Origin: an uncultured Gammaproteobacteria bacterium
GTDB lineage: Bacteria; Pseudomonadota; Gammaproteobacteria; Eutrophobiales; Eutrophobiaceae
NCBI GenBank assembly: GCA_938084745.1
Contig: CALKEZ010000005.1
Location: 124,001 to 188,000 of the forward strand
DNA: 64,000 bases
Direction: 5' to 3'
Shown: piece after piece, positions 3,157-29,459 of the stretch
How positions within the stretch are numbered: position 1 is the stretch's first letter
How the letters are laid out: each line of letters opens with the position of its first letter
Translations under genes and position numbers: made by a program
Notes under the pieces: generated by a model
Seen by the model: only the letters and a program-made list of their open reading frames with translations
Database searches by the model: none
What the model was told of the DNA's origin: nothing

Positions 3157-4512
3157 ATGAGTGACTATGACTTTGACTTGTTCGTAATCGGTGCAGGTTC
3201 CGGGGGTGTGCGGGCAGCACGCATGTCTGCATCCTATGGTGCCAAGGTTGGCATCGCTGAAGATCGCTATCTGGGTGGAACCTGTGTCAATGTCGGTTGT
3301 GTACCCAAAAAACTACTCGTCTATGCCTCACACGTTTCTGAAGAAATACACAATGCCAAAGGCTTTGGTTGGGATATAGCCCACACTAAATTCGATTGGA
3401 CCAAACTGATCAAGAACAAAAACGCCGAAATTAAACGTTTGAATGGCGTTTATAAAAATCTGCTCGACAACACCGGTGTAGAAACACTGTATGGACGAGC
3501 AACCATTGTTGACGAACATACCGTTGAAATTAAAGGAGAGTATTACACAGCAGAACGTCTGTTAGTCGCCACCGGTGGTTGGCCGATGGTGCCCGATATC
3601 CCGGGCAAGGAATATGTCATTTCGTCGAATGAAGCCTTCTTCCTTGAAACACTACCGGAAAAAATAATTATCGTTGGTGGTGGTTATATCGCTGTTGAGT
3701 TTGCCGGTATTTTTAATGGTTTGGGTGTTGATACCACCCTGCTCTATCGCGGCCCCTTGTTTTTACGGGGTTTTGATCAGGATTTACGAGTGACTCTGGC
3801 TGAAGAAATGCAAAAGAAAGGTATCAACATAAAATTTAATTCGAACATCAGTGATATAGAAAAAACTGATGATCATTTAATCGCTACCCTTGAAGATGGT
3901 GCACGACTTGAGGCAGATCAAATCATGTATGCCACCGGGCGTAAGCCAATGACTGCTAATCTGGGTCTGGAAAAAGTCGGCATAGAACTGAATGAGAAAA
4001 AGGCCATTAAAGTGAATCAACATTACCAAACCAATGTCCCCTCAATTTATGCTATCGGCGATGTCACTGATCGCGTCAATTTAACGCCTGTTGCACTGGC
4101 TGAAGGTATGGTGCTGGCAAAACGCTTTTTTGCGCATGAAGAAAAAACAGTTGATTATTTGGATATCCCTACCTGCGTATTTAGCCAACCGAATCTTGGT
4201 ACAGTCGGTTTAACCGAAGAACAAGCCAGAGAGAAATATAGCGATATTGATATCTATAAATCGAAGTTTACACCGATGAAATACTCTTTATCCGATAATG
4301 ATGAAAAAACATTGATGAAAATGATTGTTGATAAGACTACAGATCGCGTTATTGGGGTACACATGCTGGGCCCTGATGCAGGAGAAATTATTCAGGGTAT
4401 TGGTATAGCCATGAAGGCCGGCGCAACGAAAAAGGACTTTGATTCAACCATAGGAATACACCCGACGGCTGCTGAGGAATTTGTCACTATGCGTGAGCCT
4501 GTAGCTGACTAG
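3157..4512 (+). CDS. gor: Glutathione-disulfide reductase
   Basis: Regenerates reduced glutathione from the disulfide with NADPH, in the cytosol. The protein has 451 residues, the normal family length. FAD motif GAGSGG is at 12-17, the redox-active CVNVGC is at C43/C48 and followed by PKK, the NADPH fold GGGYIAVEF begins near 174, and the C-terminal GIHPTAAEE supplies the catalytic His435/Glu440 pair. The PKKLLVYA segment and the HPTAAEE ending fit glutathione reductase rather than trypanothione reductase or lipoamide dehydrogenase. The upstream gap is shared with the divergent GST gene, so one promoter region may serve both. Confidence 0.93.
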
Positions 4513-28785: not shown

Positions 28786-28861
28786 TGGTGGGCCGTGTAG
28801 GGGTCGAACCTACGACAAATGGATTAAGAGTCCACTGCTCTACCAACTGAGCTAACGGCCC
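28786..28861 (-). tRNA. tRNA-Lys (CTT)
   Basis: A 76-nt cloverleaf with CCA encoded. Acceptor arms GGGCCGT and ACGGCCC pair, and the anticodon loop CTCTTAA gives anticodon CTT. It is the last tRNA in the direction of transcription of the four-gene tRNA operon. Confidence 0.95.
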
Positions 28862-28881: not shown

Positions 28882-28958
28882 TGGGGTGAACGATGGGACT
28901 CGAACCCACGACGACCGGAATCACAATCCGGGGCTCTACCAACTGAGCTACGCTCACC
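28882..28958 (-). tRNA. tRNA-His (GTG)
   Basis: A 77-nt cloverleaf including the encoded extra 5' G (position -1) opposite C73, the histidine identity mark. Acceptor stem GTGAGCG pairs with CGTTCAC through one G-U. The anticodon is GTG in TTGTGAT. CCA is encoded. Confidence 0.96.
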
Positions 28959-29020: not shown

Positions 29021-29343
29021 TGGCGCGCCTGAGAGGACTTGAACCTCTAACCCCCGGCTTAGCTTACCATCTACGCCTTTCGACGCCCTGTATTCACAGG
29101 TTTGTGGTCTGGACTATCTCTTCACCATCACAGGTGTCACACGTATAGTCTCTACGGATCCCCAATATTCAAGGTTTCCTCGGGATTGCCATCAGCCCAG
29201 AACTCAATGTCTGGCCGTTAAGGTTTCCCCGATACAGTGCGATCCACTTTATGGATTCTGTTTCCCCATAAAGGCTCCTAATAACAAACATCGAAATGTT
29301 TGTGCCTAAAGGCCGGTGCTCTATCCGGTTGAGCTACAGGCGC
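29021..29343 (-). tRNA. tRNA-Arg (TCT) interrupted by a group I intron
   Basis: Exon 1 is 29309-29343 (35 nt) and exon 2 is 29021-29062 (42 nt). Joined, they give a canonical 77-nt tRNA: acceptor GCGCCTG/CAGGCGC with G73 and CCA, D arm GCTC/GAGC, anticodon stem CCGGC/GCCGG, loop CTTCTAA (anticodon TCT), T arm AGAGG/CCTCT with TTCAAGT. It closely resembles E. coli argU. The 246-nt insert falls inside the anticodon, after U34, so the gene cannot work without splicing. It is the second gene of the operon Pro-Arg-His-Lys. Confidence 0.93.
29063..29308 (-). ncRNA. Group I intron (IC3-like) in the tRNA-Arg(UCU) anticodon
   Basis: 246 nt, no reading frame. P1: exon CTT pairs with guide GAG (29277-29275), giving the U-G pair at the 5' splice site. 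The loop is extended by an 8-bp hairpin closed by TTCG (29303-29284). P10: TTAG just before the guide pairs with exon 2 CTAA. P2: CTTTATGG/CCATAAAG. Likely P3 CGCAC/GTGTG. P7: GACTA (29150-29146) with TAGTC (29116-29112). P8: CACC/GGTG. P9: CCTGT/ACAGG, then a GAAA-capped hairpin. The last base is G. Guide and P2 layout match cyanobacterial tRNA-Leu and Azoarcus tRNA-Ile introns, so self-splicing is expected. Confidence 0.92.
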
Positions 29344-29382: not shown

Positions 29383-29459
29383 TGGTCGGGGCAGAGGGAT
29401 TCGAACCCCCGACCCTCTGCTCCCAAAGCAGATGCGCTACCAGGCTGCGCTATGCCCCG
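29383..29459 (-). tRNA. tRNA-Pro (TGG)
   Basis: A 77-nt cloverleaf with CCA encoded. Acceptor arms CGGGGCA and TGCCCCG pair, and the anticodon loop TTTGGGA gives TGG. First gene of the tRNA operon, directly downstream of a strong promoter. Confidence 0.96.

Follow-up and report, generated by a model that had tools for sequence, protein, structure and literature searches.

Small, endonuclease-free group I introns are found in proteobacterial tRNA genes, namely the tRNA-Ile(CAU) gene of Azoarcus and the tRNA-Arg(CCU) gene of Agrobacterium. Likened by description to the intron analysed here, they differ from it in their host tRNAs or anticodons. Another known group I intron, also in a different host tRNA, shares with it the position after U34, the exon sequence CUU paired with a guide GAG and the terminal G, whereas its sequences, in the relatives that we examined, separate from those of tRNA-Arg(UCU) introns. 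The Synechocystis tRNA-fMet intron, of about 650 nt, carries the PD-(D/E)XK homing endonuclease I-Ssp6803I (PMC1995217). Group I introns have also been reported in the tRNA-Arg-TCT genes of the gammaproteobacteria Beggiatoa BOGUAY and Candidatus Thiomargarita nelsonii (PMC4853749, citing MacGregor 2013a). Compared by description, these have in common with our intron the host gene, the bacterial class and the recognition of a group I intron from an interrupted tRNA annotation; that report did not determine their structure, subtype, endonuclease or distribution. Here we describe a tRNA-Arg(UCU) gene of an uncultured gammaproteobacterium, contained in a 64,000-nt stretch of DNA (hereafter referred to as the window). 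Our analysis makes it very probable that this gene is interrupted by a bacterial-tRNA-type group I intron, which would splice by the group I mechanism to give tRNA-Arg(UCU), is mobile in origin and, in the window copy, has no endonuclease gene. As an intron, it is ordinary for its kind and in its mechanism.

On the minus strand of the window, ARAGORN with its intron option detected a tRNA-Arg(tct) gene at 29343-29021 with 77 joined bases and a 246-nt intron, the junction falling between gcctt and ctaag (Table 1); without that option, ARAGORN did not report this tRNA-Arg(UCU). The gene belongs to a cluster with the order Pro-Arg-His-Lys, between genes that we take, from recognition of their translations, to be cysS and tig-clpP-clpX-lon. 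In intron-free tRNAs of congeners, the bases matching positions 1-35 of the window gene directly abut those matching positions 282-323. The intron starts with T where exon 2 starts with C, and ends with G where exon 1 ends with T; neither junction can therefore be slid, and the exon-intron borders are fixed. A cmscan search matched the insert to the Rfam group I family RF00028 at 29297-29093 of the minus strand, over the full model length, with a score of 37.6 bits and E values of 3.7e-8 (short stretch) and 4.3e-8 (whole-genome scale); RF00028 has no other match in this genome. Because the curated gathering cut-off of RF00028 is 50 bits, a default Rfam scan misses the window intron, and the authors of tRNAscan-SE 2.0 state that their program was not designed for tRNAs with group I introns (PMC8450103). 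As default tRNA and Rfam scans miss tRNA genes interrupted by group I introns, genomes may seem to be without an AGA tRNA although they have one.

These results agree with most of the initial annotation, which had read the letters as a 246-nt insert after U34 of a gammaproteobacterial tRNA-Arg(UCU): the insert is delimited alike by the ARAGORN junction and by the congener empty sites, the joined exons form the expected 77-nt, fully paired tRNA, the assignment to group I is backed by RF00028 and by the covarying P1-P9 structure described below, and the host class is supported. It had also proposed an Rfam group I scan, which gave the match under the 50-bit cut-off, and a search of related genomes for intron-less copies, which were found in seven congeners.

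Table 1. Positions of the interrupted tRNA gene, its intron elements and neighbours in the window, and of related loci in other sequences (named in the position column).
Feature	Position	Strand	Basis
5′ exon of tRNA-Arg(UCU), G1 to U34, 35 nt	29309..29343	-	ARAGORN intron mode; identical or nearly identical to nt 1-35 of intron-free congener copies
Group I intron, 246 nt, between U34 and C35	29063..29308	-	RF00028; covarying structure; congener empty sites
3′ exon of tRNA-Arg(UCU), C35 to encoded CCA, 42 nt	29021..29062	-	ARAGORN; empty-site match 282-323
P1 guide GGAG; GAG pairs exon C32-U33-U34, with U34.G at the 5′ splice site; first G pairs intron base 1	29275..29278	-	P1 paired in 27/27 distinct sequences
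P2 hairpin	29247..29273	-	Compensatory changes at 7/8 pairs
P3 5′ strand (3′ strand 29138-29144)	29234..29241	-	3 pairs with compensatory changes; 97% paired
P4 (29227-29232 with 29180-29185), P5 inside	29180..29232	-	U-A/A-U and G-C/U-A swaps; 100% paired
P6; loop 29162-29172 is the endonuclease gene site in relatives	29156..29179	-	Alignment; congener blastn matches split 1-171 / 182-323; insert read
P7 (29146-29152 with 29111-29116), expected guanosine-binding helix, around P3 3′ strand and P8	29111..29152	-	6/6 P7 pairs invariant, 27 sequences
P9.0, P9.1 and P9.2 (GAAA tetraloop)	29066..29108	-	Compensatory changes in P9.1 and P9.2
Omega G, terminal intron G	29063..29063	-	G in 77/77 introns
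tRNA-Pro(UGG), upstream neighbour	29383..29459	-	Cluster order kept in occupied and empty genomes
tRNA-His(GUG), downstream neighbour	28882..28957	-	Cluster order kept in occupied and empty genomes
tRNA-Lys(CUU), downstream neighbour	28786..28861	-	Cluster order kept in occupied and empty genomes
Second-type intron, Enterovibrio nigricans	L130 6974-7306
Second-type intron, Aeromonas veronii	L176 772-1107
Second-type introns, other loci	L138, L158, L181
Free-standing endonuclease, phage Sf-FR1	L251 2351-2926
Free-standing endonuclease, phage Herod	L252 1906-2441
Free-standing endonucleases, viral contigs	L253-L268, L270, L271

Helices P1 to P9 were placed manually on the sequence of the window gene, and pairing was counted over an alignment of 28 endonuclease-free tRNA-Arg(UCU) precursors (27 distinct sequences), whose sources are the family, the class and the phyla Bacillota and Bacteroidota. 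Across the 28 homologues, standard pairs fill 97.1% of cells, against 85.3% in shuffles and 33-41% in slid controls, and two-sided changes occur at 42 pairs, against 26.9 in shuffles, counts that include the tRNA stems, to which part of the covariation signal belongs. On every measure, 0 of 500 shuffles reached the observed values. The two-sided changes are located in P2, P3, P4, P5, P8, P9.1 and P9.2, and P7 is invariant. The U.G pair at the splice site is unchanged in all 27 distinct sequences, and among 77 introns a GGAG-like guide is present in 76 and the exon CUU in every one. We rejected a different register of P1, in which the GG of the anticodon stem would take part, as GGAG is retained by introns whose host tRNAs have another stem (CUGCCUU). 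The window copy has a full P10 (UUAG with CUAA); overall, P10 is paired in 70% of cells, with no covariation. Beyond the splicing core, little is conserved. The GAAA loop on P9.2 is suggestive of subgroup IC3, that of bacterial tRNA introns. A minimum-free-energy fold of the precursor (z = -2.6) was not used as evidence; it did not reproduce the pseudoknotted P3/P7 core, which is beyond such folds.

The anatomy of the precursor is thus observed, and we infer its catalysis and splicing from the family to which it belongs. Following the mechanism common to group I introns, a P7-bound guanosine would cut after U34, and the freed U34 would then attack after the terminal G and be joined to C35. The predicted product, with the loop CUUCUAA, would be a normal tRNA-Arg(UCU) that reads AGA.

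Genomes of the same genus contain three states of this locus. In four of them (G001, G003, G006 and G007), P6 of the intron is enlarged by about 430 bases, and in seven the orthologous tRNA-Arg(UCU) is intact and intron-free; wherever the contig reaches far enough, occupied and empty genes are both in the Pro-Arg-His-Lys setting. The P6 insert encodes a PD-(D/E)XK protein of about 136 residues (PF11645, E ~1e-40), which also matches PDB 2OST (E = 2e-5), the structure of I-Ssp6803I. The D and QVK residues of the two proteins are aligned, with the consensus fDl...QVK over 33 homologues, and correspond to the D...QxK residues of 2OST that we take to be catalytic. The endonuclease of the congener introns is of the same PD-(D/E)XK kind as that of the Synechocystis tRNA-fMet intron, to which it is only distantly similar at the E value given; the host tRNA is a different one. 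The endonuclease gene is present, with intact frames, in the introns of five relatives (the four congeners and G013), and it is absent from the window intron and from the window genome.

A mobile origin would account for this distribution among congeners, four with the endonuclease gene in P6 and seven with empty sites, and the window copy is an endonuclease-free member of the mobile intron family. In a clpX tree, the window host is sister to the endonuclease-bearing G007 (support 98/96). An intron-core tree, built with the P6 insert removed, places the window copy with the G007, G006 and G003 introns, and the endonuclease-bearing congener introns are nearest to its core (95% identity to G007 over the columns kept for the tree; 92-93% pairwise). 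On these sequence comparisons, the endonuclease gene was likely lost in the window lineage rather than originally absent; since the core-tree node is weak (91/47), we put this no more firmly. After such a loss, the window copy would persist only by vertical descent or with an endonuclease made elsewhere.

The family might instead be old and stationary at this site, its patchiness produced by repeated loss during vertical descent and not by homing. The locus is orthologous throughout, and the endonuclease tree mostly tracks host phylum, with the gammaproteobacterial sequences in one clade and two Bacillota members among those of Bacteroidota, as a stationary family would have it. However, on the clpX tree of 24 genomes, intron presence needs eight changes, no fewer than with shuffled labels, and the endonuclease frames are intact in the five relatives. 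Moreover, the intron cores of the window host and of G031, which belongs to another genus, share 91% identity and their clpX genes 74%, whereas other pairs at that clpX distance have cores 73-79% identical; this points to a transfer of the intron between the two genera. We therefore regard a stationary family as unlikely, although it retains some weight.

The mobile group I intron that we favour, if it splices, has a consequence for decoding. The assembly (87% complete, 57 contigs) contains 33 tRNA genes, 30 of them typed; its arginine anticodons are CCU (two genes), UCG and ACG, besides the interrupted UCU gene, and the three untyped genes, at 84-88 nt, are as long as Leu or Ser tRNA genes. 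A second tRNA-Arg(UCU) was not found in the assembly, and an exon search of the genome yielded one copy; within an assembly of this completeness, the interrupted gene is the sole UCU tRNA, the case that the initial annotation had considered. AGA accounts for 7.3 per 1000 codons and is present in 29 of the 31 long ORFs of the window. As the assembly has no other UCU tRNA that we could find, AGA decoding likely depends on splicing of the interrupted gene, with the proviso that a second UCU tRNA could be missing from an assembly that is 87% complete.

That proviso also bears on whether the gene is a dead copy, with an intron that no longer splices and with a further UCU tRNA, absent from the assembled contigs, reading AGA; the assembly is incomplete, and several of its tRNA genes are at contig ends. 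Such a dead copy is very improbable, given that the exons form a fully paired tRNA, the core helices keep their pairing through compensatory changes, the exon search revealed no other copy and the congeners keep tRNA-Arg(UCU) at the same locus. It is just as improbable that the intron is kept because its splicing regulates AGA decoding, for example by the GTP level: although the tRNA is the only UCU tRNA detected and AGA is in most genes, the locus is intron-free in seven congeners, our analysis revealed no regulatory element and little is conserved outside the splicing core.

Many other hosts have an intron at the same site of tRNA-Arg(UCU). A pattern made of the intron 3′ half joined to the exon matched ten of 369 gammaproteobacterial species genomes, nine of them with a tRNA-Arg(UCU) parse; the remaining one (L101) had no tRNA parse and was taken as a chance match. 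In named genomes, the pattern scan returned at least 117 stretches. Of the loci that we examined, at least 66, from five phyla, give a clean tRNA-Arg(tct) with an intron; a few of these loci are one genome in two collections. Among the matches listed, 42 are gammaproteobacterial (three by title only), 14 are from Bacillota, 7 from Bacteroidota, 2 from Omnitrophota and 1 from Desulfobulbia, and the endonuclease gene is recognizable in 31 of 89 loci. Plasmid-encoded relatives of the endonuclease were searched for and none were found. In addition, Enterovibrio, Aeromonas veronii, Marinomonas, Halothiobacillus and Desulfogranum have, at this same tRNA-Arg(UCU) site, group I introns of a second sequence type (59-78 bits, above the Rfam cut-off). 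The initial annotation had considered a UCU arginine host a new or rarely noted niche; this claim fails because such introns had already been reported from Beggiatoa and Thiomargarita (PMC4853749), and many gammaproteobacteria and members of other phyla have an intron at this site. The kind of intron was known before; what our analysis adds is the occupation of the same site in several phyla, the endonuclease-bearing introns and empty sites of congeners, and the phage relatives of the endonuclease beside the same tRNA gene.

Relatives also have group I introns or matches in what appear to be other tRNA and RNA genes. Ten loci (L032, L033, L035, L036, L038, L041-L043, L046 and L047) have them in an apparent tRNA-Ile(CAU), whose joined anticodon ARAGORN mislabels as Gln-ctg, and six (L045, L048, L050, L052, L055 and L059) apparently in tRNA-Leu(UAA), of which ARAGORN labels L050 as Phe and leaves L055 unparsed. 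By eye, group I matches near 1501-1790 of L051, L060 and L061 apparently split a tmRNA gene near its 3′ end, with GGGTTCGA before and CCGCCTCCACCA after the intron, and those in L039, L040, L044, L054, L056 and L058 are in apparent 23S rRNA, some of the loci having two introns near each other.

A protein search of phage records identified free-standing relatives of the endonuclease in Synechococcus phage Sf-FR1 (61% identical) and Acinetobacter phage Herod (38% identical), and in both phages the gene directly follows an intact tRNA-Arg(UCU). A search of viral contigs with the phage protein retrieved 21 that encode relatives, and one with the gammaproteobacterial endonuclease gave no match. At 18 of the 21 viral loci, the first tRNA gene upstream of the endonuclease gene is tRNA-Arg(UCU), which is intact, on the same strand and at a distance of 39-77 bp, although the independent cases are fewer than 18 because many of the contigs are near-relatives; the most distant are Herod and L270. 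The tRNA gene downstream of the endonuclease gene varies (Thr, Leu, Asn, Gly, Ala or Lys). None of the 20 viral contigs scanned gave a group I match that reaches the Rfam cut-off. According to PMC3984707, the phage introns known by 2014 were all in protein-coding genes, which the phage loci do not contradict, as the endonuclease gene adjoins the tRNA gene and no intron is inside. These arrangements suggest that the endonuclease lineage is tied to tRNA-Arg(UCU), with an intron or without. In Salmonella phage vB_SenA_SM5 (L274 1402-1989), a distant relative of the endonuclease, nearer to I-Ssp6803I (E = 6e-8), starts 24 bp after tRNA-Met(CAT). Our reading is that these endonucleases, including the vB_SenA_SM5 relative, are addressed to particular tRNA genes whether or not an intron is present. 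Phage Herod (L252) also has a strong group I intron match, flanked by the genes for an HNH endonuclease and the terminase (3770-4039; 78.8 bits), and a GOLLD RNA ahead of its tRNA array (62-430).

In a broader model, which we consider about evenly balanced between right and wrong, the anticodon loop of tRNA-Arg(UCU) would be a homing site across several phyla. One PD-(D/E)XK lineage would be addressed to it in two forms, within bacterial group I introns and free-standing 3′ of the intact phage gene, and phages may carry it between hosts; the window intron would be an endonuclease-free descendant.

Collectively, one genus offers an empty site, an endonuclease-bearing intron and an endonuclease-free intron at a single orthologous locus, a ready set for tests of the homing cycle, and, as this endonuclease lineage is linked to tRNA-Arg(UCU) in phages, the carriage of tRNA introns by phages can be tested directly.
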